DNA of 45,743 bases from Treponema sp. (GTDB lineage: Bacteria > Spirochaetota > Spirochaetia > Treponematales > Breznakiellaceae). The number at the start of each line of letters is the position of its first letter. Within the stretch, counting starts at the first letter, position 1. The stretch covers positions 1 through 45,743 of the forward strand of contig JAISCC010000146.1 in the NCBI GenBank assembly GCA_031265845.1, written 5' to 3'. The position numbers and the translations under genes are program-made. This document shows positions 12,815 through 36,012 of the stretch, in pieces. The notes beneath the pieces were generated by a model, which was given only the letters and a program-made list of their open reading frames with translations, made no database searches and was not told the origin of the DNA.

Positions 12815-13561
12815 ATGGCGGTACTACACACCATCAAAGCGTGGCTGTACGAAAATCTCTTGACGGACGATCCCAATGATTACACGGCGCGGGTCAGCGC
12901 GGAGCGCGCGCTTTCGACGCGGGACATTTGTCAGTCTGCGGCGGATCGGGGCGGAGCGGATGTCAGCGCGTCCGCGATGGAACATGCGGTCGAGTTGTTT
13001 CACAAGGAGATGGGCTACCGGCTCTGCGACGGGTTCTCGGTGAACACGGGTTGGTACAACGCGTCGATGCACATCAAGGGCGTATTCAACAGTCCGGCGG
13101 AGGGCTTTGACCCTGAGAAACACACGATTGCGGTTGAGTTGCATCAGGGAGTGGAGCTTCGCAAAGAATTGAACATGGTGAGCGTGAGCGTTCTGGGCAA
13201 GGCCGAATCAAACTTCTTCATCGCCCAGGTGGTTGACATGCGGACGGGCAGCGTCAATGATCTGCTGACGCCCGGACGCAACGCGCGGATCACCGGCGGC
13301 AAGCTGAAGGTGGAGGGCGCGGACCCCTCCTGCGGAGTGTACTTCGTGAACGAGGCGGACGGATCGCGGGTGAAGGTGGACGAGGAGGACATCGTGGAGA
13401 ACCAGAACGCCCGCCTGCTCATTGTCATTCCCGCGCTGGCTTCGGGAACCTACCGGCTGGAAGTGACCACGCAGTACATGGGCGGCGGCAAGCTGCTGAA
13501 AGCCCCCCGCACCGCCGTGTTCGACCGCCTGCTGACTGTCGCGGAGCCGAACGCTCCGTAG
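12815..13561 (+). CDS. HU-like DNA-binding / DUF4469 Ig-fold protein 1
   Basis: A 248-residue cytosolic protein, no signal peptide. Residues 1-125 match the HU-type DNA-binding family seen in Bacteroidetes and treponemes: W-L-Y-E-N-L-L-T-D-D-P-N-D-Y-T-A-R-V, then G-F-S-V-N-T-G-W-Y-N and I-K-G-V-F-N. Residues about 145-245 fit the DUF4469 Ig-like domain (G-K-L-K-V-E-G-A-D-P, then L-I-V-I-P-A-L-A-S-G-T-Y-R-L-E-V-T-T-Q). The start has AAAGGAG six to seven bases upstream. The stop codon is directly followed by nine 23-bp palindromic repeats and then a terminator. A paralogue lies at 33993-34757. A nucleoid or element-associated role is inferred. Confidence 0.8.
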   Translation: MAVLHTIKAWLYENLLTDDPNDYTARVSAERALSTRDICQSAADRGGADVSASAMEHAVELFHKEMGYRLCDGFSVNTGWYNASMHIKGVFNSPAEGFDPEKHTIAVELHQGVELRKELNMVSVSVLGKAESNFFIAQVVDMRTGSVNDLLTPGRNARITGGKLKVEGADPSCGVYFVNEADGSRVKVDEEDIVENQNARLLIVIPALASGTYRLEVTTQYMGGGKLLKAPRTAVFDRLLTVAEPNAP

Positions 13562-13766
13562 CGCAAGGCGTTTGATCCGGGCGGCGCGGAGTGTTTGAGG
13601 CGCCTTGCGCAAAGTGTTTGCGCCGTCCGGTGCAAGGGGTTTGATCCGGGCGGATCAAGGCGCTTGATCGGGGCGGATCAAAGTGGTTGATCGGGGCGGA
13701 TCAAAGCGTTTGATCCGGGCGGATCAAAGCGTTTGATCCGGGTGGATCAAAGTGGTTGATCGGGGC
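13560..13766 (+). repeat. Nine tandem 23-bp palindromic units
   Basis: Nine consecutive units of exactly 23 bp beginning inside the TAG stop codon. The last five are nearly identical, with arms GGATCAAA-GYG-TTTGATCC followed by GGGC. Unit 13606-13628 has different but matching arms (GCGCAAA-GTG-TTTGCGC), so pairing is conserved while sequence changes. A tenth, degenerate unit runs into the terminator. Confidence 0.9.
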
Positions 13767-13783
13767 GGCGCGGAGTGAATCAG

Positions 13784-13819
13784 AAGGGCGGGGGCGCTTA
13801 TAGCGCCTCCGCCCTTTTT
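13784..13819 (+). terminator. Hairpin terminator, copy 1 of a repeated cassette
   Basis: A 14-bp stem with one G-U pair, loop TTATA and a T5 tail. Near-identical copies occur at 15929 and 22904, with a degenerate copy at 13956-13995. Confidence 0.85.
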
Positions 13820-13828
13820 GTTGGGCGG

Positions 13829-14056
13829 GCGGTGTCAGACACGCGGTGTCTGACACGCGGTGTCTGACGTGTGGCGGGTGTCAGAGGAGCGCCGTGTCAG
13901 AGGCGTGAATCAGAAGGGCGGCGGTGTCAGACACGCGGATGTATGTTAGAGGCGCGGGCGGATGTCAGGGCGCTTATAGCGTCCCCACCCTTTTTGTTGG
14001 GCGTGTGGTGTGGTATCTGACACGCGGCGGAGTTAGAGGCGCGTGATTCAGACACG
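13829..14056 (+). repeat. Cluster of TGTCAGACA-type palindromes
   Basis: Between the terminator and the A1 promoter the odd palindrome GTGTCAGACAC (or its complement GTGTCTGACAC) and partial forms recur many times, separated by CGCGG or GGCG. A degenerate copy of the hairpin terminator sits at 13956-13995, and a truncated copy of its left flank at 13904-13920. No gene is seen here. Confidence 0.7.
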
Positions 14057-14160: not shown

Positions 14161-15834
14161 ATGATGTATCGGAAATTAGCGGTTGTATTCTTGGCGTTTG
14201 CGGTTGCGGGCGCGGCATTTGCGAAAGACAACCTTGCCGTACTGCCGTTTACCGGCGGCACGGGCGAAGAGGGCGAAATCATAGCGGAACTGTTCTCGTT
14301 CAACCGTGAATTGAACGCGGTGTTCGCGCCCATTCCCCGCACGAGCATCACGCGCACGGTCAATAACGAGCAAAAGTTTCAGCGTAACACCGGCATGACT
14401 GACCCTGACACCATCGCGGCTATCGGGAAGCAACTCGGCGCGAACTACGTGCTTACGGGGAGCATCGGCAAGCTGGGCAGTCAAAACCTGTTGATCATTT
14501 CGATAGTGAAGATCGACGACCTGCGGCAGGTGGCTGGGGATGTTCAGACCTACGTGAATACAAGGGACATACAAGGCAAACTGCCGGACATGGCGCGGAA
14601 TATCATTGAGGCGACGAAGATAGACGCATCGCGGCTGGAAAAGCTGGCGGTAACGCCAGTGGATTTGGGCAAAGACATTGACGCGCGGGTTGCGGATACG
14701 CTGGCGCAGATACTGTCCATAAACCTTATCAAAAGCAAGAAATATGCGGTATACCCGCGCACCGCAACATTGGAACAGGTACAGACGGAATACAGGAATC
14801 AGCGGAGCGGGATAACCGCGGACGAGAATATTGTTGACATAGGCAAGGGGGAGAACCCACGATTGGCGCTGTCGGTGGTGGCGCGGCGGTGGGATAACCA
14901 GAATATGTTCAACGCGGCGATCATCAATCTCGAATCCGGGGTACAGGTAGTAGGCGGGTCAGTTGATTACCAAACGTTGGATAGCGGTATAACTGCGATG
15001 GAGAATCTCGTGCGGGAATTGACGACCACGTATTTAACTTTATCGCTTGCCGAGTCGTTAAAGTGGATCAGCGCCAACGCGGTAGACGGCGGGAACTACG
15101 CGGTTACCTTGAAGAACAACGAGACCCTCGCGCCCCAGTCGCTTTCGTATAATGGGAAGAAGGTGAGTATAACCCTTGACGGCGGGACTGCGGAGCGGAC
15201 CGTTAGCTTGAGTGCAAACGGGTCGCTCTTTACGGTGGGAAGCGGCGTAAGCTTGACGCTGGGAAACAACGTCTCCTTGCAGGGGCGGAGTAGCAATACG
15301 GCTTCGCTCGTTGTGGTGAACAGCGGGGGAACGCTGGTGATGGAAAACGGGTCCAAGATCAGCGGCAATTCCGCAGTCCAGAGCAGCGCCGGGGTGGGGG
15401 TGAGCAGAGGCGGTACGTTTACGATGAACGGCGGGACGATCAGTGGCAATACAGCTCGCTTCAACGGTAGCGGGGTGTATATGAGCGGCGGGACGTTCAT
15501 GCAGAGCGGCGGAACTATTAGCGGCAATTCCGCGTCTTTCGGCGGCGGGGTGTATGTGAGCAGCGGGACGTTCACGCAGAGCGGCGGGACTATCAGCGGC
15601 AATAAAGCATCCTCACGCGGCGGCGGGATGTATGTGTACAGTAGCAGTACATTTACCAAGCAGACGGGCGGGGTCATTTACGGGTCAGACGCAAGCGGTA
15701 CGCTGAAGAACACCGCGCCTAACGGGAGCGCGGTCTATGTCGATAGTTCGCCGACCAAGAAACGCAACAGCACGGCGGGTGTCGGCGTAACGCTGGACAG
15801 CACGAAAAGCGGTTCGGCGGGCGGCTGGGAATAA
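14161..15834 (+). CDS. A1: exported CsgG-like protein with short beta-helix
   Basis: A 557-residue exported protein. The ATG at 14161 follows GAGGAGG by four to five bases; the longer frame from 14059 covers the promoter and is rejected. Signal peptide: residues 1-20, ending G-A-A-F-A. Residues about 22-165 resemble a CsgG/TolB-type domain (N-L-A-V-L-P-F, G-K-Q-L-G-A-N-Y-V-L-T-G). A second related module follows to about 325 (A-D-T-L-A-Q-I-L-S-I-N-L, L-A-L-S-V-V-A-R-R-W). From about 400 to 500 come four G-G-T-I-S-G-N coils of a right-handed beta-helix, then a conserved tail ending S-A-G-G-W-E shared with A2. No lipobox. A periplasmic or surface role is inferred. Confidence 0.75.
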   Translation: MMYRKLAVVFLAFAVAGAAFAKDNLAVLPFTGGTGEEGEIIAELFSFNRELNAVFAPIPRTSITRTVNNEQKFQRNTGMTDPDTIAAIGKQLGANYVLTGSIGKLGSQNLLIISIVKIDDLRQVAGDVQTYVNTRDIQGKLPDMARNIIEATKIDASRLEKLAVTPVDLGKDIDARVADTLAQILSINLIKSKKYAVYPRTATLEQVQTEYRNQRSGITADENIVDIGKGENPRLALSVVARRWDNQNMFNAAIINLESGVQVVGGSVDYQTLDSGITAMENLVRELTTTYLTLSLAESLKWISANAVDGGNYAVTLKNNETLAPQSLSYNGKKVSITLDGGTAERTVSLSANGSLFTVGSGVSLTLGNNVSLQGRSSNTASLVVVNSGGTLVMENGSKISGNSAVQSSAGVGVSRGGTFTMNGGTISGNTARFNGSGVYMSGGTFMQSGGTISGNSASFGGGVYVSSGTFTQSGGTISGNKASSRGGGMYVYSSSTFTKQTGGVIYGSDASGTLKNTAPNGSAVYVDSSPTKKRNSTAGVGVTLDSTKSGSAGGWE

Positions 15835-16048: not shown

Positions 16049-16125
16049 AGTAATGGAAGGTGTCAGTGGGAAGTGTGGGAAGCTTTGGGTGTCTGACACA
16101 GGGCGGGCTATATAAGGAAAAGAAA

Positions 16126-18150
16126 ATGAAAAAAGGATGTGTTTCAATAGTTTTCGTGGTCATGGCGGTCGTGGGAATGTCCGCGCAGACCACGGGGGAT
16201 GGGCTTTCCCTAGACGAGGGCATCGCGCAGATTGCGCGGGACTTTGAGCGCGGGCTTCCCGCGGGAACCCGTATCGCGGTGGTGAACCTTGAGTCCCCTT
16301 CCGCGCGGTTCAGCGACTTCGTGCTTGAGGAGTTGCAGGGCTATCTGGTGAACGGCAAGAGACTTGTGGTAATGGAACGTTCCAAGTTGGAACTCCTGCG
16401 TAACGAGATTAACTTCCAGATGTCTGGGGACGTGAGCGATGAGAGCATGGTCTCGCTGGGGAAATCCCTTGGGGCGCAAGTGGTCGTTACGGGGCGTCTG
16501 ACGGACATGGGCGGGGCGTATCGGTGTCGGTTCAACGCCATTGACGTGGAGACCGCGGTGCGGACGGCGTCCTCAGCCGTTACCCTGCGGAACGACCGAA
16601 CCATCGCGTATATGCTTCCCACGAGCGCCGCGCCGCCGCCCGCGCAAGTTCCGTCAAAGCCCGACCCCGCGCTGGCGACCGCGTATTTCAACGCGGGCTT
16701 CGCGCACTACGAGGCGAAGCGGTACACGGAAGCCGCCGCGGACTTCACCCGCGCGCTCGCGGTAACGCAGGATGACGAAGCCTCCCTGCGCTATCGGGCG
16801 TTGTCGTATTACTACCTCAAGGACTATGACGGGACGATTACGGACATGAGCCGCTTGATACAGATGAAGCCGGGCAATGCGGAAAGTTACCTTACGCGAA
16901 GCGCCGCATACGGTGGAAAAAGGGAGTATGACAAAGAGATAGCGGACTGCAATGAGGCGATCAGGCTCGATCCCAATTATGCTCTGGCGTACACTAACCG
17001 GGGCAACGCCTATGACGACAAAGGGGAGTATGACCGGGCAATTGCGGATTACAATGAGGCGTTGCGGATCAACCCCAATCTTGCCGAGGCGTACTTTAAC
17101 CGGGGCATCGCCTATAACGGCAAAGGAGAGTATGACCGAGCCATCGCGGATTACAACGAGGCGTTGCGGCTCAACCCCAATTACGCGGTGGCGTACAATA
17201 ACCGGGGCAACGTCTACTACAACAAAGAGGAGTATGACCGAGCCATCGCGGACTACAATGCGGCGTTGCGGATCAACCCCAATTATGTTGAGGCGTACAC
17301 TAACAGGGGCAACGCCTATGATGAAAAAAGGGAGTGTAACCGGGCTATCGCAGACTACAATGCGGCGTTGCGGCTCAACCCCAATTACGCTGAAGCGTAC
17401 AATAACCGGGGCATTGCCTACTACAACAAAGAGGAGTATGACCGGGCAATCGCAGACTACAATGCGGCGTTGCGGCTCAACCCCAATTACGCGGTGGCGT
17501 ACTATAACCGGGGCAACGTCTACTACAACAAAGAGGAGTATGACCGAGCCATCGCGGACTACAATGAGGCGTTGCGGCTCAACCCCAATTATGCTGATGC
17601 GTACCTTAACCGGGGCAACGCCTATAACAACAAAGGGGAGTATGACCGGGCTATCGCCGACTACAATGAGGCGTTGCGGCTCAACCCCAATCTTGCTGAT
17701 GCGTACAATAACCGGAGCGCCGCCTACAATCGCAAAGGGGAGTATGACCGGGCGATAGCGGACTGCGATGCGGCGTTGCGGCTCAACCCCAACTATGCTT
17801 ATGCGTACAACAACCGGGGCAACGCCTACTACGGCAAAGGGGAGTATGTCCGGGCGATAGCGGACTACAACGAGGTGTTGCGGCTCAACCCCAACTATGC
17901 TTATGCGTACTATAACCGGGGCAACGCCTACGGTGAAAAAGGCGAGTATGACCGAGCCATCGCCGACTGCAATGAGGCGCTGCGGCTCAACCCCAATTAT
18001 GCTGAGGCGTATACTAGCAGGGGCGTTGCCTACGCTATGAAAGAGGATTACACCCACGCCCGCGCGGACTGGGAGAAGGCGTTGCAACTCAATCCCGCTG
18101 ACGCCAATGCGCGGCAAAATCTTGAAGTCCTGCGGGGCATGGGATACTAA
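16126..18150 (+). CDS. B1: exported CsgG-like protein with 14 TPRs
   Basis: A 674-residue exported protein starting at M-K-K-G-C-V-S-I (16126), with AAGGA seven bases upstream. Signal peptide ends M-S-A-Q near residue 21. Residues about 35-165 fit a CsgG/FlgO-type domain: R-I-A-V-V-N-L-E-S, L-V-V-M-E-R-S-K-L-E-L-L-R-N-E, L-G-A-Q-V-V-V-T-G-R-L-T-D and N-A-I-D-V-E-T-A-V. After a Pro-rich linker come 14 tandem 34-residue TPRs (about 182-660), most with the consensus A-Y-x-N-R-G-N-A-Y-x-x-K-G-E-Y-D-R-A-I-A-D-Y-N-E-A-L-R-L-N-P-like pattern, and a short tail L-E-V-L-R-G-M-G-Y. The near-identity of repeats indicates recent expansion. Paralogues: 23100-24614, a pseudogene at 33063 and a remnant at 8481. 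Confidence 0.85.
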   Translation: MKKGCVSIVFVVMAVVGMSAQTTGDGLSLDEGIAQIARDFERGLPAGTRIAVVNLESPSARFSDFVLEELQGYLVNGKRLVVMERSKLELLRNEINFQMSGDVSDESMVSLGKSLGAQVVVTGRLTDMGGAYRCRFNAIDVETAVRTASSAVTLRNDRTIAYMLPTSAAPPPAQVPSKPDPALATAYFNAGFAHYEAKRYTEAAADFTRALAVTQDDEASLRYRALSYYYLKDYDGTITDMSRLIQMKPGNAESYLTRSAAYGGKREYDKEIADCNEAIRLDPNYALAYTNRGNAYDDKGEYDRAIADYNEALRINPNLAEAYFNRGIAYNGKGEYDRAIADYNEALRLNPNYAVAYNNRGNVYYNKEEYDRAIADYNAALRINPNYVEAYTNRGNAYDEKRECNRAIADYNAALRLNPNYAEAYNNRGIAYYNKEEYDRAIADYNAALRLNPNYAVAYYNRGNVYYNKEEYDRAIADYNEALRLNPNYADAYLNRGNAYNNKGEYDRAIADYNEALRLNPNLADAYNNRSAAYNRKGEYDRAIADCDAALRLNPNYAYAYNNRGNAYYGKGEYVRAIADYNEVLRLNPNYAYAYYNRGNAYGEKGEYDRAIADCNEALRLNPNYAEAYTSRGVAYAMKEDYTHARADWEKALQLNPADANARQNLEVLRGMGY

Positions 18151-18182: not shown

Positions 18183-18330
18183 AGACGAGACGTGCGGTGG
18201 TGTCTGACGTATCGGTGTCTGACACCGTGTTAAGGCGCGGGTGTCAGGCACACGGGCGGTGTTGAGTGTTAGCGGCGTACGGTGTCTGTGCGGCGGTGTC
18301 AGACGTGCCGATGCCGGAGGCGTCCTTCTG
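18183..18330 (+). repeat. TGTCTGACA-type palindrome cluster before A2
   Basis: Several GTGTCTGAC(A/G) and GTGTCAG(A/G)C motifs lie in the B1-A2 gap. Unlike the other gaps, this one has no copy of the hairpin terminator, so B1 transcription may continue into A2. No gene is seen between 18151 and 18498. Confidence 0.6.
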
Positions 18331-18354
18331 GTTGGGGAGTGGTTCAGACCCGTA

Positions 18355-18383
18355 TTGACGAATTGTCTGCCATATATAATGAT
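18355..18383 (+). promoter_or_regulatory. Shared promoter module, copy for A2
   Basis: TTGACG (18355-18360), 17 bases, AATGAT (18378-18383) with overlapping TATAAT (18375-18380). The palindrome is degenerate here (TGTCTGCCA), as is the following TGTCAG site (CGTCTACCA). Confidence 0.6.
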
Positions 18384-18498
18384 GGAAGGCGTCTACCATA
18401 CACCGGGCAGGCTCCGCTTGCAAGCCGAGGTCAGCGGCGCATTTCGTACAACAACCGTTGGGAAGTTGTCTAACACCCTTCGGATGTGGGGGTTATTT

Positions 18499-21400
18499 AT
18501 GATGTATCGGAAATTAGCGGTTGTATTCTTGACGCTTGCGGTTGCGGGCGCGGTCTTTGCGAAGGATAACCTCGCTATCCTGCCATTCACCGGCGGCACG
18601 GGCGAGGAAGGCGAAATCATAGCGGAACTGTTCTCGTTCAACCGTGAATTGAACGCGGTGTTCACGCCCATTCCCCGCACGAGCGTCACGCGCGCGGTCA
18701 ATAGCGAGCGGAGGTTTCAGCGTAACACAGGCATGACAGACCCGGACACTATCGCGGCTCTTGGGAAGCAACTCGGCGCGAACTACGTGCTTACGGGGAA
18801 TATCGGCAAGCTGGGCAGTCAAAATCTGTTGACTATTGCGATAGTGAAGATCGACGACCTGCGGCAGGTGGCGGGGGATGTTCAGACCTATGTGGATAGA
18901 AGGGACATACAGGGCAAACTGCCCGGCATGGCGCGGACTATCATCGAGGCGACGAAGATAGACGCTTCGCGGCTGGAGAAGCTGGCGGTAATACCGGTGG
19001 ATTTGGGCAGAGACATTGACGCGCGAGTTGCGGATATGTTGGCGCAGGTCTTGGCGGTGAACCTCATACGGAGCGGCAAATACGCGGTGTATCCGCGCAC
19101 CGCGACGCTGGAGCAGGCTCAGGCGGAATACAAGAACCAACGGAGCGGGCTCACTGCGGACGAGAATATTGTTGACATGGGCAAGGGGGAGAATCCGCGA
19201 TTGGCGCTGTCGGTGGTGGCGCGGCGGTGGGACAGCCAGAATATGTTCAACGCGGCCATCATCAACCTCGAATCCGGGGCGCAGGCGGCAGGCGGGTCAG
19301 TGGATTACAATTCGTTGGACGACGGGATAAGGGTGATGGAGAGTCTGGCGCGGAAGTTGACGACCATGCATTTCACTTCTTCGCTTGCCGAGTCGTTGGC
19401 GTGGATTGCAAGCAACGCGGAAGAAGGCGGGAACTACGCCATCACTTTACAGAACAACGAGACCATCGCGCCGCAGACACTCTCATATAATGGAAAGAAA
19501 GTGAGCGTCCGCATTGACGGCGGGACGGCTGAGCGGACAGTTACGTTGAGCGCAGACGGGGCGCTCTTTGAGGTAGGCGACGGCGTAACATTGACGCTGG
19601 GCAACAATGTGTCCTTGCAGGGGCGGAGTAGCAATACGGCTTCGCTCGTGTGGGTGAGCGACGGCGGAACGCTGGTGATGGAAAGCGGCTCGAAGATCAG
19701 CGGGAACACGTGGGTCCGCAGAGTGGGCATGTACGGCGACATAATCACCGCTTGGGTCGGCGGAGTGTATGTGAGCGGCACGTTTGTGATGAGCGGCGGG
19801 ACGATCAGCGGCAATTCCGCAGACTGCGGCGGTGGGGTGTACGTGTACGGCAGTGGCACGTTCACCATGAGCGGTGGGACGATCAGCGGCAATTCCACCA
19901 CTGGCTTCGGTGGTGGGGTATACGTAGACGGTGGGACGTGGACGCAGAGCGGTGGGGCTATCAGCGGCAATATCGCAGCCTACGGCGGCGGCGTGTATGT
20001 GAGCGGGACGTGGACGCAGAGCGGTGGGGAAATCAGCGGCAATACCGCAGACTACGGCGGCGGCGGGGTGTGTGTAGACGGTAGCGGGACGTGGACGCAG
20101 GACGGCGGGACGATCAGCGGTAATACCGCAGACTACGGCGGCGGGGTATATGTGTACGGGACGTGGACGCAGGACGGCGGGGAAATCAGCGGGAATACCG
20201 CCAAGTACGGCGGCGGGGTATATGTGTACGGCACGTGGACGCAGAGCGGCGGGGAAATCAGCGGGAATACCGCCAAGTACGGCGGCGGGGTAGATGTGGA
20301 TAACAACGGGACGTGGACGCAGAACGGCGGGATGGTCAGCGGCAACACAGCCACCAACGGCGGTGGAGTGGATGTATGGGGTATGTTCACGCAGAGCGGC
20401 GGGACAGTCAGCGGCAACACCGCAGGCGACAGTGGCGGTGGGGTATATGTGGACAACACCGGCACGTGGACGCAGAACGGCGGGATGGTCAGCGGCAACA
20501 CAGCCACCAACGGCGGTGGAGTGGATGTATGGGGTATGTTCACGCAGAGCGGCGGGACGGTCAGCGGCAATATCGCAGACTACGGCGGCGGGGTACATGT
20601 GGACAACAGCGGAACGTTCACGCAGAGCGATGGGACGGTCAGAGGCAATACCGCAGACTACGGCGGCGGCGTGTATGTGGGCGGGACGTGGACGCAGAGC
20701 GGCGGGACGGTCAGCGGCAACACCGCAGACTACGGCGGCGGAGGGGTTTGTATAGACAGTAGCGGGACATGGACGATGAATGGTGGGACGATTAGCGGCA
20801 ACACCGCAGACTTCGGCGGCGGGGTGTTTATGGCTGGCACGTGGACGCAGAGCGGCGGGGCTATCAGCGAGAATACCGCCAAGCACGGCGGCGGCGGGGC
20901 GCTTATAAGCGGTAGCGGCACATGGACGCAGAGCGGCGGGACGGTCAGCGGCAATTCCGCGTCTTTCGGCGGCGGGGTGAATGTGGATAACAGCGGAACG
21001 TTTATGCAGAGCGATGGGACGGTCAGCGGCAACACCGCAGACGGCGACGGTGGGGTATACGTGGACGGTAACGGCACATGGACGATGAGCGGCGGAGCAA
21101 TCAGCGGCAACACCGCAGACAACAATGGCGGCGGGGTGTACGTTGACAGCGGCGCATTCACGCAGAGCGGCGGGGAGATCAGCGGCAATACCGCAGGCGA
21201 CAGTGGCGGTGGGGTATATGTATGGGGTACGTTCACGATGAGCGGTGGGACGGTCAGCGGCAACACAGCCGCCCATTATGGCGGCGGGGTGCGTGTGAAC
21301 ATTGGCGGTACGTTTGCGATGAGCGATGGGACTATCAGCGGCAACACAGCCACCGACGGCGGCGGCGTGTACGTGAGCGGGGTGTGGACGATGAGCGACG

Positions 21401-22755
21401 GAGAGATCAGCGGCAACACAGCAGACGACAGTGGCGGCGGGGTGTGTGTGGACGGTGGCGGAACGTGGACGATGAGCGGCGGGATGGTCAGCGGTAATTC
21501 CGCATTCAACCACGGCGGCGGGGCGTATGTGAGCGGGACGTGGACGCAGGACGGCGGGACTATCAGCAGGAATTCCGCCGCCTCCTACGGTGGTGGGGTG
21601 TATATATCCGATGGCACGTGGACGCTGAGCGAGGGGACGGTCAGCGGCAATTCCTCATTCGACGGCGGTGGGGTGTTTGTGGGCGGGACATTCACGATGA
21701 GCGGTGGGACTATCAGCGGTAATTCCGCCTTCGACGGTGGCGGCGGGGTGTATGTGAGCAGTGGCGGCACGTGGACGATGAACGGCGGAACTATCAATGG
21801 CAATTCCACCAGATGGGGCGGTGGGGTGTTTGTGAGCAGTAGCGGTACATGGACGCTGAACTATGGGACAATCAATGGCAACACAGCCTCTTCCAACGGC
21901 GGCGGAGTGCTTGTGGGCGGTAATGGGACATTCACGATGAGCGGCGGGAAGATCAGCGGCAACACAGCCACCGACGGCGGCGGGGCGCTTGTGTTCGGTA
22001 GCGGCACATTTATGCTGAACGACGGAGAGATCAGCGGCAATTCCGTATCCACCTACGGTGGCGGGGCGCTTGTGAGTGGCAACGGGACATTCACGCAGAG
22101 CGGTGGGACTATCAGCGGCAACACAGCCATCGACGGCGGTGGGGTGTTTGTGGGTGGTAGCGGCACATTTATGCTGATCGGCGGAGAGATCAGCGGCAAT
22201 TCCTCCACTTCCGATGGCGGCGGGGTGTGTGTGGACGGTAGCGGCACGTTTATGATGAGCGGCGGGACTATCAGTGGCAATGCCGCGGATGTCGGCGGCG
22301 GGGTGGGTATGAACAGCGGGGTGTTCACGATGAGCGGCGGGACTATCAGCGGCAATTCCACATCCTACTTCGGCGGCGGGGTGTATGTGTACGACGGCAC
22401 GTTTATGATGAGCGGCGGGGCTATCAGTGGCAATGCCGCAGACGCCGATGGCGGTGGGGTGTGTGTGGGCGGGACATTCACGATGAGCGGCGGGGAGATC
22501 AGCGGCAATTCTGTCGCAGAATACAGCGGCGGCGGCGGAGTGTATGTTCGGAGTAGTGGGACGTTCACCAAGCAAGCGGGCGGGGTCGTTTACGGGTCGG
22601 ACGCAAGCGGTTCGCTGAAGAACACCGCATATACCAATAGTTACGGGCACGCGGTCTACGTCAGCGGTTCATCGGACAAAAGACGCAACAGCACGGCGGG
22701 TTCTGGCGTCCCGCTGGACAGCAGAGTAAGCGGCTCAGCGGGCGGCTGGGAGTAA
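18499..22755 (+). CDS. A2: giant exported CsgG-like beta-helix protein
   Basis: A 1418-residue version of A1. The start at 18499 (M-M-Y-R-K-L-A-V) has GGGGG upstream; the longer frame from 18241 crosses the promoter. Signal peptide to about residue 23. Residues to about 320 duplicate the two A1 N-terminal modules closely. From about 420 to 1355 there are roughly 38-40 coils of about 24 residues with the pattern G-G-G-V-Y-V-x-G-T-W-T-x-S-G-G-T-I-S-G-N-T-A, a right-handed parallel beta-helix of the polymorphic-adhesin type. The tail (F-T-K-Q-A-G-G-V-V-Y-G-S-D-A to S-A-G-G-W-E) matches A1. Coil composition shows internal duplications. Probably a long surface or periplasmic fibre; the large open minus-strand frames across it are shadows. 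Confidence 0.85.
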   Translation: MMYRKLAVVFLTLAVAGAVFAKDNLAILPFTGGTGEEGEIIAELFSFNRELNAVFTPIPRTSVTRAVNSERRFQRNTGMTDPDTIAALGKQLGANYVLTGNIGKLGSQNLLTIAIVKIDDLRQVAGDVQTYVDRRDIQGKLPGMARTIIEATKIDASRLEKLAVIPVDLGRDIDARVADMLAQVLAVNLIRSGKYAVYPRTATLEQAQAEYKNQRSGLTADENIVDMGKGENPRLALSVVARRWDSQNMFNAAIINLESGAQAAGGSVDYNSLDDGIRVMESLARKLTTMHFTSSLAESLAWIASNAEEGGNYAITLQNNETIAPQTLSYNGKKVSVRIDGGTAERTVTLSADGALFEVGDGVTLTLGNNVSLQGRSSNTASLVWVSDGGTLVMESGSKISGNTWVRRVGMYGDIITAWVGGVYVSGTFVMSGGTISGNSADCGGGVYVYGSGTFTMSGGTISGNSTTGFGGGVYVDGGTWTQSGGAISGNIAAYGGGVYVSGTWTQSGGEISGNTADYGGGGVCVDGSGTWTQDGGTISGNTADYGGGVYVYGTWTQDGGEISGNTAKYGGGVYVYGTWTQSGGEISGNTAKYGGGVDVDNNGTWTQNGGMVSGNTATNGGGVDVWGMFTQSGGTVSGNTAGDSGGGVYVDNTGTWTQNGGMVSGNTATNGGGVDVWGMFTQSGGTVSGNIADYGGGVHVDNSGTFTQSDGTVRGNTADYGGGVYVGGTWTQSGGTVSGNTADYGGGGVCIDSSGTWTMNGGTISGNTADFGGGVFMAGTWTQSGGAISENTAKHGGGGALISGSGTWTQSGGTVSGNSASFGGGVNVDNSGTFMQSDGTVSGNTADGDGGVYVDGNGTWTMSGGAISGNTADNNGGGVYVDSGAFTQSGGEISGNTAGDSGGGVYVWGTFTMSGGTVSGNTAAHYGGGVRVNIGGTFAMSDGTISGNTATDGGGVYVSGVWTMSDGEISGNTADDSGGGVCVDGGGTWTMSGGMVSGNSAFNHGGGAYVSGTWTQDGGTISRNSAASYGGGVYISDGTWTLSEGTVSGNSSFDGGGVFVGGTFTMSGGTISGNSAFDGGGGVYVSSGGTWTMNGGTINGNSTRWGGGVFVSSSGTWTLNYGTINGNTASSNGGGVLVGGNGTFTMSGGKISGNTATDGGGALVFGSGTFMLNDGEISGNSVSTYGGGALVSGNGTFTQSGGTISGNTAIDGGGVFVGGSGTFMLIGGEISGNSSTSDGGGVCVDGSGTFMMSGGTISGNAADVGGGVGMNSGVFTMSGGTISGNSTSYFGGGVYVYDGTFMMSGGAISGNAADADGGGVCVGGTFTMSGGEISGNSVAEYSGGGGVYVRSSGTFTKQAGGVVYGSDASGSLKNTAYTNSYGHAVYVSGSSDKRRNSTAGSGVPLDSRVSGSAGGWE
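20311..20557 (+). repeat. Recent 153-bp duplication inside A2
   Basis: About 94 bases from 20311 recur exactly from 20464 (offset 153 bp, 51 codons, two coils). Adjacent coils are diverged, so this is a recent in-frame duplication. Confidence 0.85.
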
Positions 22756-22903
22756 AGAGCAAAGGAAGACGGGCGGGCGGCGCGGTGGTATTAGAGGCGC
22801 GGTGTTAAACACGGTGTCAGGCGCGGGTGTCAGGCACGCGGTGTCAGACGCGGTGTTAGGGCGTGGGTGTCAAGCACACGGCGGTGTTAGAGGCGTGAAT
22901 CAG

Positions 22904-23022: not shown

Positions 23023-23099
23023 AGTACTGGAAGGTGTCAGTGGGAAGTGTGGGAAGCTCTGGGTGTCTGACACCGGGCGGGCTATATAAGGAAAAGAAA

Positions 23100-24614
23100 A
23101 TGAAAAAAGGATGTATTTCAGTAGCTTTCGCGGTCATGGCGGTCATGGGAATGTCCGCGCAGACTGCGGGGGATGGGCTTTCCCGAGACGAGGGCATCGC
23201 GCAGATCGCACGAGAGCTTGAGAATGAATTGCCTGCGGGAACCCGCATCGCGGTGGTGAACCTTGAGTCCCCTTCCGCGCGGTTCAGCGACTTTGTGCTG
23301 GAGGAACTGCAAGGCTATCTGGTGAACGGCAAGAAACTCGTGGTAACGGAGCGTTCCAAGCTGGAACTCCTGCGGAACGAGATCAACTTCCAGATGTCCG
23401 GGGACGTGAGCGATGAGAGCGCGGTGTCTCTGGGGAAATTCCTTGGGGCGCGAATGATCGTTACGGGTCGTCTGACGGATATGGGCGGGACGTATCGTTG
23501 CCGGTTCAACGCCATCGACGTGGAAACCGCAGTGCAGACGGCCTCCCCGGCCGTTACCCTGCGGAACGACCGCGCCCTCGCGTATATGCTTCCCGCGAGC
23601 GCCGCGCCGCCGCCCGCGCAAGTTCCAGCTAAGCCCGACCCCGCGCTGGTGACCGCGTACTTCAACACGGGCTTCGCACACTACGAGGCGAAGCGGTACA
23701 CGGAAGCCGCTGCGGACTTCACCCGCGCCCTCGCGGTTCAGCAGGACGACGAAGCCTCCCTGCGCTATCGGGCGTTGTCGTATTACTACCTCAAGGACTA
23801 TGACAGGACGATTGCGGACATGAGCCGCTTGATACAGATGAAGCCGGACAATGCGGGAAACTACCTTACCCGAAGCGCCGCCTACGACGACAAAGGGGAG
23901 TATGACAAAGCCATAGCGGACTACAATGAGGCGTTGCGGCTCAACCCCAATTACGCTGAAGCGTACAATAACCGGGGCGTCGCCTACTACGGCAAAGGGG
24001 AGTATGACCGGGCGATAGCGGACTACAATGAGGCGTTGCGGCTCAACCCCAATTATGCGGTGGCGTACAACAACCGAGGACTCGCCTACAAAAACAAAGG
24101 GGAGTATGACCGGGCGATAGCGGACTACACTCAGGCGTTGCGGCTCAATCCCAATCTTGCTGATGCGTACTATAGCCGGGGCGCCGCCTACTACAGCAAA
24201 GGGGAGTATGACCGAGCAATTGCGGACTACAATGAGGCGTTGCGGCTCAACCCCAATCTTGCTGATGCGTACAATAACCGAGGCAACGCCTACTACGGCA
24301 AAGGGGAGTATGACCGGGCGATAGCGGACTACACTGAGGCGTTGCGGCTCAACTCCAATTATGCTTATGCGTACTATAACCGGGGCAACGCCTACGGCCG
24401 CAACGGGGAGCATGACAAAGCCATAGCGGACTTCACCGAGGCGCTTCGGCTCAACCCCAATTATGCTGAGGCGTATACCAGCCGGGGTGTCGACTACTCT
24501 TATAAAGGCGATTATGCACGCGCCCGTGTGGACTGGGAGAAGGCGTTGCAACTCAATCCCGCTGACACCGATGCGCGGAATAATCTTGAAGTCCTGCGGG
24601 GCATGGGATATTAA
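23100..24614 (+). CDS. B2: exported CsgG-like protein with 9 TPRs
   Basis: A 504-residue paralogue of B1, start at 23100 with the same AAGGAAAAGAAA leader. Signal peptide M-K-K-G-C-I-S-V to S-A-Q. The CsgG-like domain (about 35-165) is very close to B1 (R-I-A-V-V-N-L-E-S, S-K-L-E-L-L-R-N-E, N-A-I-D-V-E-T-A-V), and the linker and first two TPRs are almost the same. It then has nine TPRs in total against fourteen in B1, and the same final repeat and L-E-V-L-R-G-M-G-Y end. The difference in repeat number with conserved ends points to unequal recombination between 102-bp units. Confidence 0.85.
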   Translation: MKKGCISVAFAVMAVMGMSAQTAGDGLSRDEGIAQIARELENELPAGTRIAVVNLESPSARFSDFVLEELQGYLVNGKKLVVTERSKLELLRNEINFQMSGDVSDESAVSLGKFLGARMIVTGRLTDMGGTYRCRFNAIDVETAVQTASPAVTLRNDRALAYMLPASAAPPPAQVPAKPDPALVTAYFNTGFAHYEAKRYTEAAADFTRALAVQQDDEASLRYRALSYYYLKDYDRTIADMSRLIQMKPDNAGNYLTRSAAYDDKGEYDKAIADYNEALRLNPNYAEAYNNRGVAYYGKGEYDRAIADYNEALRLNPNYAVAYNNRGLAYKNKGEYDRAIADYTQALRLNPNLADAYYSRGAAYYSKGEYDRAIADYNEALRLNPNLADAYNNRGNAYYGKGEYDRAIADYTEALRLNSNYAYAYYNRGNAYGRNGEHDKAIADFTEALRLNPNYAEAYTSRGVDYSYKGDYARARVDWEKALQLNPADTDARNNLEVLRGMGY

Positions 24615-33891: not shown

Positions 33892-33996
33892 GATCCCTCC
33901 CCAAGTCTGGGATGGATCCTTCCCCAAGTCTGGGAGGTGTCCCTCCCTCATGCAGGGAAGGATCATTCCGCAAGCTGGGGAAGGACCCCTCCCTAG
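33892..33996. repeat. 23-bp palindromic array after DUF4469 gene 2
   Basis: Four full units (33892, 33915, 33938, 33961) and a partial one reach the stop codon of the minus-strand gene at 33993. Units share the plan TCCCC-CAAGTCT-GGGGA or similar, that is, pyrimidine and purine arms that pair. The sequence differs from the array at 13560 but unit length and layout are the same. Confidence 0.85.
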
Positions 33997-34757
33997 TTTT
34001 GAGCGGTCAGTTTGAACTCTGACCGTACTTCCCGGACGGTTTTCAGCACAGCCCTGGCGCCCTTCGCCGAGCTTTGGGTGACGATTTTCAGCGCGTATTC
34101 ACCGCCCGCGACAAGGATCGCCGGGACAATCGCCTTGAGGGTCCTCGGCTCGTTCACGGCAACGATCTCCGCCTTGACGGGCGAATTCTGCCCATCGTCA
34201 AACCAGAGTCCAATCTCGTCCGTGTGCTGGGCGTCGCCTTCGATCTTAAGTCCGCAACCCCGGATTGTCAGGAGATTCCCGATGGTCATCACCTCGTCCG
34301 TCTGGCCCGAATGTTCGTCCACCGCCTCCGCGATAAGTCCGTCCGCCTGGTCCACGCCGTCAAACAGAACCTCCACCCGCTCCCGGATGTACTTCCGGAA
34401 TGGCGCGGCGCTCTGCATACGGACTTCCGGGTGGAGCCCCTCGGAGAGGCTCGTCTCCGCGCCCTCGTACTCGCCGGGCAGGCGGATGCGCAGGTTAAAA
34501 AGCGGGGTTTTGATTTTGTACCCGTCTGCGGCAAGGTAATAGATAAGCTCGCAGCCTGCGGTCAGCCCCTCCTCTATCACCCTGGGATCGGTCTCAATGT
34601 TGTACACCGCCGCCTTGCTGGCTATGCCGTGGATGTCCAGCTCCGGCTGGTGCACGGCCCGTAAATTGTAAGGCTTTTTCGCGTCGGGCAAAAAAGCGTG
34701 GGTGAACTTCGCTGTAACCTTGTGGATTACATCTTTCACCGTAAAATCAAGCGCCAT
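33993..34757 (-). CDS. HU-like DNA-binding / DUF4469 Ig-fold protein 2
   Basis: A 254-residue paralogue of the gene at 12815. The start at 34757 has AAGGAGGCCCATT upstream. Residues 1-135 are the HU-like part (Y-N-L-R-A-V-H-Q-P-E-L-D-I-H-G-I-A-S-K-A, then G-Y-K-I-K-T-P-L-F-N-L-R-I). Residues about 150-250 fit the Ig-like DUF4469 part (N-L-L-T-I-R-G-C-G-L-K-I-E-G, then A-I-V-P-A-I-L-V-A-G-G-E-Y-A-L-K-I-V-T-Q-S). No signal peptide. The stop codon runs straight into a 23-bp repeat array. A strong promoter lies about 370 bases upstream, and the leader contains a 14-base C run (G on the plus strand). Confidence 0.75.
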   Translation of the reverse strand: MALDFTVKDVIHKVTAKFTHAFLPDAKKPYNLRAVHQPELDIHGIASKAAVYNIETDPRVIEEGLTAGCELIYYLAADGYKIKTPLFNLRIRLPGEYEGAETSLSEGLHPEVRMQSAAPFRKYIRERVEVLFDGVDQADGLIAEAVDEHSGQTDEVMTIGNLLTIRGCGLKIEGDAQHTDEIGLWFDDGQNSPVKAEIVAVNEPRTLKAIVPAILVAGGEYALKIVTQSSAKGARAVLKTVREVRSEFKLTAQN

Positions 34758-34807: not shown

Positions 34808-34966
34808 GAGGTTTGCCGTGATGGGTAAAAAATGACCGGACGCCGCTTTTTTTTGCCGGGAATCCGGACGCTCTACGGGTTGTCCGGAACGTTGAACGGA
34901 ATGTCCAAAAATACATAGAGAGGGTATATGACGAGTTTGTTGGAAAATCGATGTTATAGGCGCTAT

Positions 34967-34980
34967 GGGGGGGGGGGGGG
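34967..34980. repeat. Homopolymeric tract of 14 G
   Basis: Fourteen consecutive G on the plus strand, in the predicted leader of DUF4469 gene 2, 210 bases before its ATG. Two small minus-strand frames (34769-35023, 34782-35033) would be read through it as poly-proline. Such runs mutate by slippage. Confidence 0.85.
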
Positions 34981-35218: not shown

Positions 35219-35951
35219 GTCTGACACTGCTCCCGGAGGGCGTTCAATCGGCGGCTTTCGTAACGGTGTCTGGCACTGCGCCCCTGGAGCGCAACGGGGT
35301 CTGACACCGGACACCGCGACTTGGAGGGCGTTCAACCGGTGGTTTTCGCAACGGGGTCTGAACGCCGCGCCCTAGAGGGCGTTCAACTAGCGGCTTTCGC
35401 AACGATGTCTGACACCGGACACCGCGACTTGGAGGGCGTTCAACTAGCGGCTTTCACAACGGGGTCTGACACCGGACACCGCGACTTGGAGGGCGTTCAA
35501 CTAGCGGTTTTCGCAACGGAGTCTGAACGCCGCGCCCCTGGCAGTTCATTCATGAGAGTGTCTGACACCGCGACTTGGTGGCGGCTTATTCATGACGGTG
35601 TCTGACACCGCTCCCCAGAGGGCGTTCAACCAGTGGCTTTCACAACGGGGTCTGAACGCCGCGCCCTCTAGCGGCTCATTCATGAGAGTGTCTGACACCG
35701 CTCCCTAGAGGGCGTTCAACCGGCGGCTTTCGCGATGGTGTCTGAACGCCGCGCATCAGGCGGCTCATTCAGGACGGTGTCTGACACTGCTCCCCCTGGC
35801 AGTTCATTCATGAGAGTGTCTGACACCGCGCCTTGGAGGACATTCAACTAGCGGCTTTCGTGATGGTGTCTGAACGCCGCGCCCTCTAGCGGCTCATTCA
35901 TGACGGTGTCTGACACCGCTCCTCTGGCGATTCATTCTCAATAGTGTCTGA
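35219..35951 (+). repeat. Array of 17 GTCTGA-type motifs
   Basis: GTCTGACACCG or variants (GTCTGAACGCC, one GTCTGGCAC) begin at 35219, 35268, 35299, 35356, 35407, 35464, 35521, 35560, 35600, 35650, 35690, 35740, 35779, 35818, 35868, 35908 and 35946. Spacings are mostly 57, 50 or 39-40. Intervals are of two repeated kinds: long, with GGGCGTTCAACTAGCGGC, and short, with GCGGCTCATTCATGA. No gene is supported between 34758 and 36204. Confidence 0.85.
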
Positions 35952-36012
35952 CACCGCTCCCGGATGGCGTTAAACCAGCGGCGCTTCTTAATCTCTTGAA
36001 GAGCGCTGTTTC

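Follow-up and report, generated by a model that had tools for sequence, protein, structure and literature searches.

Genes for proteins that combine an HU-like domain with an Ig/TIG-like DUF4469 domain are mostly followed, in treponemes and in Bacteroides, directly from the stop codon by a private array of palindromic repeats with a period of 22–24 bp, and the repeat motif changes together with one small loop of the adjoining protein. Judged from sequence comparison, the HU-like/DUF4469 proteins are probably DNA-binding regulators, each with an address of its own and a matching array of operators.

Two such genes lie in the window (the whole stretch of 45,743 nucleotides that was analysed). 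Gene 1 (12815–13561, plus strand; 248 residues) encodes an HU-like domain at about residues 28–121 and the Ig/TIG-like DUF4469 domain at residues 132–246, as judged from Pfam, an AlphaFold2 model and fold matches; its matches to PF14848 (HU-DNA_bdg, 8e-36) and PF14734 (DUF4469, 2e-31) are both above the curated cut-offs. Gene 2 (33993–34757, minus strand; 254 residues) matches DUF4469 above the cut-off (3e-15) and the HU family only weakly (1.6e-4, 22.2 bits against a cut-off of 30 bits), and with 25% identity the two proteins are distant paralogues. A run of about 14 G (34966–34980), a homopolymer tract of the length-variable kind, is situated upstream of gene 2.

The coordinates given in the earlier note for both genes and for a 23-bp array behind each are confirmed by Pfam, TRF and shuffling. 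Array 1 (13563–13768, plus strand; TRF period 23, 9.0 copies, 78% matches) consists of nine units with the dyad core ATCAAAGNGNTTGAT and the half-site GATCA. The note had described nine exact units; the number holds, whereas the units are 78–88% alike. Their arms covary (GATCAAA/TTTGATC against GCGCAAA/TTTGCGC), as can be seen in the sequence. Array 2 (33892–33993, minus strand; period 23) starts at the stop codon of gene 2 and contains four and a half units with the dyad TCCCAGACTTGGGGA, in agreement with 4.5 copies found by TRF. Self-match scores are 107 for array 1 and 28 for array 2, and did not exceed 15 in 1000 shuffles. Both arrays share a plan of an approximately 15-bp dyad and an 8-bp spacer but not their sequences, as had been claimed.

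The window contains other repeats as well. A second, different palindromic repeat of the GTGTCTGACAC type has many intergenic copies (13829–13868, 22798–22881 and 35290–35982), is also found near the arrays of loci L012 and L017, and looks like a dispersed REP-like element. Two proteins (16060–18150 and 23034–24614) are built from TPR-like units of 34 residues in tandem (DNA period 102 bp, 83% alike), and a 1504-residue protein (18241–22755) with degenerate SGGTISGNTA-type repeats (72–78-bp DNA period) is probably an exported repeat protein.

The association of gene and array extends across the family. In the host genome, which belongs to a treponeme relative, there are 25 DUF4469 genes. Most of them carry a private dyad array of period 23 at the stop codon, and almost all HU-domain profile matches of the genome fall on these 25 genes. 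We took 3′ flanks from the host genes and from relatives in 28 of 60 related genomes. The best repeat period is 23 after 88 of the 135 genes with enough flank, the runner-up being 24 (four genes). In an enlarged set from related genomes, which takes in one finished treponeme genome of 2,843,201 bp, 135 of 190 DUF4469 genes have an array of period 22–24. Counted from the first base of the stop codon, these 135 arrays begin at a median distance of 9 nt, so the start at the stop codon, which had been noted for the window, is general. Seven Bacteroides-type genomes contributed 23 further DUF4469 genes, 20 of them with an array of period 23 or 24; the scan that the earlier note had proposed for other family members is thus strongly positive. 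The background was 832 kb taken without regard to arrays and amounting to about 12% of the host genome and 14% of one finished treponeme genome. Nine of the ten dyadic period-23 arrays in it are within 300 nt of a DUF4469 stop codon; among periods of 16–44, only 23 shows such a tie. Arrays reach a length of 25 units.

DUF4469 genes that lack an array belong largely to one subclade of the tree, with scattered truncated or degenerate cases in addition. Many genes of this Treponema subclade (L166, L049, L156, L165–L171, L082 and L190) have terminator-like hairpins instead, and the subclade could reveal what role the family has without arrays. Several draft contigs (G005, G008, G010 and G014) stop inside an array or just past a family gene; arrays therefore probably break assemblies and are under-counted. 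At L009, L012, L015 and L016, a GC-rich hairpin of the GCCCCCCGTACGGGGGGC type and a T-rich stretch directly precede the ribosome-binding site of the DUF4469 gene, a possible attenuator or upstream terminator.

When 80 arrays are superposed on their dyad centres, complementarity is 85–90% at 5–7 bp from the centre (0.85–0.90 observed against 0.26–0.31 expected), 75% at 4 bp and 66% at 8 bp, with little beyond 8 bp. Since pairing peaks at 5–7 bp, half-sites recur every 11–12 bp in alternating orientation. The half-site is private, with 71 different 5-mers in 109 arrays.

Arms that are complementary and begin at the stop codon could also form a series of RNA hairpins at the mRNA 3′ end that act in stability, attenuation or termination, an option raised in the earlier note. 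If pairing in the sense strand were selected, G-U mismatches should far outnumber A-C mismatches. The counts are 153 G-T against 129 A-C for all arrays (41 against 34 when counted by array) and 14 against 21 for the Bacteroides arrays. As the two kinds are about equally frequent, the dyads behave like sites in duplex DNA. A stricter subset of arrays does show an excess of G-T (90 against 56 A-C), which may reflect a mild RNA contribution. A strong GC hairpin followed by a T-run (13786–13819, plus strand; folding at −28 kcal/mol) lies 3′ of array 1 and resembles a terminator, so that array 1 may be transcribed as a 3′ UTR; the hairpin is absent from the list of a consensus scan. Terminators 3′ of arrays are few (3 of 118), and the window has no Rfam match at the gathering score. 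RNA hairpins would moreover require neither a strict 23–24-bp period nor covariation with a protein loop. With most mismatch counts so nearly balanced, we do not favour the RNA explanation and consider it very unlikely. Neither arrays nor proteins have a match in PHROG (phage protein families), NCBIfam or PADLOC (models of known anti-phage defence proteins).

An argument for binding of each array by its own protein comes from the protein sequences. Proteins that are 90% identical can carry unrelated array motifs. We compared protein pairs of equal overall identity whose half-sites are either the same or different, using pairs that are 65–97% identical. Differences in loop 221–226 amount to.18 in the 45 pairs that share a motif and to.67 in the 290 pairs that do not; the corresponding backbone differences are.23 and.24. 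Residues 222, 223, 225 and 226 differ in 12% of cases with the same half-site and in 72% with a different one; for neighbouring variable sites of that stretch (227, 230, 233, 239, 243 and 244), the values are 52% and 70%. Dividing the first same-to-different ratio by the second gives 0.22 (cluster-bootstrap interval 0–0.35). A sliding window over the whole protein ranks 223–226 first (r of.476 against an sd of.113). In gene 1, the loop (codons 221–226, Y-M-G-G-G-K) is encoded at 13475–13492 and a second cluster of motif-tracking residues (codons 234–238), on the strand after the loop, at 13514–13528, both on the plus strand. The aligned loop of gene 2, SSAKGARA (34050–34073, minus strand), is its putative specificity loop.

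The loop also has predictive value among related proteins. Where loop identity is at least 0.8, the nearest neighbour by loop gives at least four of the five half-site bases correctly in 90% of 49 cases. A phase-free comparison at a backbone similarity of 0.8–0.97 yields 18.0 of 23 matching unit positions for similar loops and about 11.5 of 23 for dissimilar ones, with a null value of 10.1. For 24 newly fetched loci, the phase-free gain is modest (12.1 of 23 for the loop neighbour against 11.9 for the backbone neighbour), and this only partly successful prediction limits the recognition claim. When two proteins are distant, similarity of their loops does not bring similarity of their motifs. 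The association is confined to related proteins, indicating that there is no simple universal loop-to-base code; a search for such a code across distant proteins gave no signal.

Sequence alignment shows that gene 3′ end and array have been swapped together, while the flanks on both sides stayed nearly identical. The orthologous loci L182 and L061 of two treponemes are identical over a stretch up to about codon 206, diverge through the gene end and the array, and are then 99.5% identical for 1.3 kb. The Bacteroides proteins L145 and L146 share 93.8% identity, and nine of their approximately 17 differences are situated in the loop; their arrays are different and the flanks conserved.

This exchange raises the question of whether loop and motif are merely linked, the 3′ end and the array travelling together by recombination and the repeat being either free of sequence-specific recognition or bound through the preference of HU-type proteins for cruciform or bent DNA. 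Besides the L182/L061 exchange, the lack of convergence between distant proteins fits such an explanation, as does some synonymous linkage: synonymous divergence in the loop is.33 for pairs with a common motif and.52 for the others, so part of the covariation is linkage. Linkage does not, however, explain which sites freeze. Within the exchanged block, proteins with a common motif keep only residues 222, 223, 225 and 226 and residues 234–236 and 238 fixed, whereas 227, 230, 233 and 239 are free, and the same motif and spacing recur in arrays that lack the gene (see below). We regard linkage by itself as a distinctly unlikely explanation. It is extremely unlikely that the array serves mainly as a site at which a mobile specificity cassette is exchanged by recombination, with the protein as an accessory factor. 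HU/IHF-type proteins do assist recombination, and loop and array are exchanged while flanks are conserved; against this, no recombinase was noticed beside the genes, and in L182/L061 the breakpoint on the upstream side falls within the gene and not in the array. The covariation of loop residues and array motif instead supports cognate binding, the possibility raised in the earlier note, and cognate recognition is well supported at the level of sequence.

The AlphaFold model of the gene 1 protein has a mean pLDDT of 76, with about 90 for the C-terminal domain and moderate values for the HU-like region. Residues 222–226 are predicted to form the tip of a hairpin between strands 211–221 and 227–242. 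The N-terminal domain (28–121) has the HU fold of the HU/IHF superfamily and can be aligned with the structures of HU, IHF, Hbb and a Burkholderia histone-family protein (Z 8.4–9.1). The C-terminal domain (132–246) has a TIG/IPT fold, as in the dimerisation domains of Rel-family proteins and in cyclodextrin glycosyltransferases. The C-terminal Rel (IPT/TIG) domains of NFAT and NF-kB match with Z of 8.5–9.3; since the TIG domains of cyclodextrin glycosyltransferases match better (Z 11.8), the fold alone says nothing of function. A solved relative exists in PDB 4FMR, BVU_2165 of Bacteroides (Phocaeicola) vulgatus, which shares the fold and the combination of an HU-like with an Ig-like domain (phmmer 1e-33, Foldseek 3e-25, Z 20.3). 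The entry describes a putative DNA-binding protein, and its title names neither an array nor a specificity loop.

The genes that follow the arrays may indicate what is controlled. A co-directional gene starts within 450 nt of 84 of 121 arrays, and 33 of these 84 genes encode a lipobox, compared with 15 of 135 and 20 of 168 in the background (11–12%). Among the longer downstream proteins read by eye, about 55 of 71 are exported. They comprise BspA-type leucine-rich repeat proteins (LRR_5), FGE-sulfatase-like lipoproteins, LpoB/CsgG-like proteins, outer-membrane barrels, fimbrillins and a TonB receptor. The gene downstream of array 1 (14161–15831, plus strand) likewise encodes an exported protein, with an LpoB-like stretch.

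Arrays with a matching motif also occur away from family genes. The GATCA motif of array 1 recurs in two more arrays of four units each at 23-bp spacing, both on contig C103, in which we found no DUF4469 gene; a reversed-pattern control gave none. The first is located 82 nt before a gene for a solute-binding lipoprotein, behind an ABC permease, and the second 120 nt before a gene for an esterase-like lipoprotein, near a GH3 gene. An orphan 23-bp array at L208:7610–7710, with no adjoining DUF4469 gene, has the GTGAGAG motif of the C57 paralogue and directly precedes a lipoprotein gene with an fn3 domain. In the finished genome G216, the GGTAGAC motif is found in its own array and in none elsewhere.

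Trans arrays before exported genes, together with the exported genes downstream of family arrays, would be read most economically if the arrays are operators. Against this role it counts that some arrays have no exported gene behind them, that array 1 is cut off from its neighbour by the terminator-like hairpin, and that the GGTAGAC motif of G216 has no trans array. The arrays could alternatively be bound for the maintenance of the chromosome or of an element, as a centromere-like or DNA-organising platform, and not for gene control. The HU-like domain and the sheer length of some arrays are in line with this, and plasmid Rep/iteron, ParR/parC and ParB/parS systems likewise pair a protein with private tandem cognate sites beside its gene, with specificities that diverge between copies. 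The DUF4469 loci differ from these systems in being dispersed chromosomal paralogues, 25 of them on one genome, that encode an HU+Ig protein and have the array 3′ of the stop codon. The neighbours that we read or scanned include no ParA/ParM-like gene and no replication gene; many of them encode exported proteins. The C103 arrays sit just upstream of lipoprotein starts. A maintenance role is thus unlikely in our view.

We infer physical binding, dimerisation, bending and both the fact and the direction of regulation, and propose the following mechanism for the operator reading. The HU-like/DUF4469 protein would be a sequence-specific, presumably dimeric DNA binder that recognises the dyad behind its own gene as two half-sites of approximately 5 bp, with their midpoints 6 bp to either side of the dyad centre, and repeated along the array every 11–12 bp in alternating orientation. 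The Ig/TIG-like hairpin-tip loop (222–226, aided by 234–238) would set the half-site sequence, and dimerisation and DNA bending are probably the part of the HU-like domain. The arrays are probably multi-site operators for the following gene, often one for an exported or surface-exposed protein, and some proteins probably act at arrays elsewhere in the genome too. The loop-coding 3′ end adjoins the array and can be swapped together with it, which would give a locus a new address in a single step. We give an even chance to the fuller proposal that the hypervariable Ig-like hairpin loop is an exchangeable reading head for short DNA half-sites in at least two phyla, that every gene brings along its own target as tandem operators, that loop and target array are swapped as a cassette so that surface-protein circuits are re-addressed in one recombination event, and that the trans arrays form small private regulons.

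Re-programming of an address via a small coding segment is also a feature of specificity-subunit swapping in type I restriction and of the TAL effector code; in the DUF4469 system, by contrast, the target array is exchanged along with the reading loop, and no modular rule holds between distant proteins. We know of no ordinary HU with an Ig domain, a hypervariable loop or arrays. Burroughs, Kaur, Zhang and Aravind reportedly described new HU clades in Cell Cycle in 2017 (doi 10.1080/15384101.2017.1315494), a paper outside the literature that we covered. Within that literature we found neither a description of such a system nor a paper on DUF4469, in keeping with the earlier note, which knew of no described system of this form. 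The HU fold, the Ig/TIG fold and operator arrays are known parts; what would be new is a widespread system in which loop and array are exchanged together.

The findings provide a hypothesis for the function of two poorly known domains that occur in multiple copies in gut and oral spirochaetes and in Bacteroides, and they supply more than 100 natural protein–site pairs from which to learn how one loop sets DNA specificity. They also suggest a route by which these bacteria may rewire the control of surface adhesins and lipoproteins. That the site sequence changes with one small loop suggests a rapidly re-targeted recognition system over neighbouring surface-protein genes.
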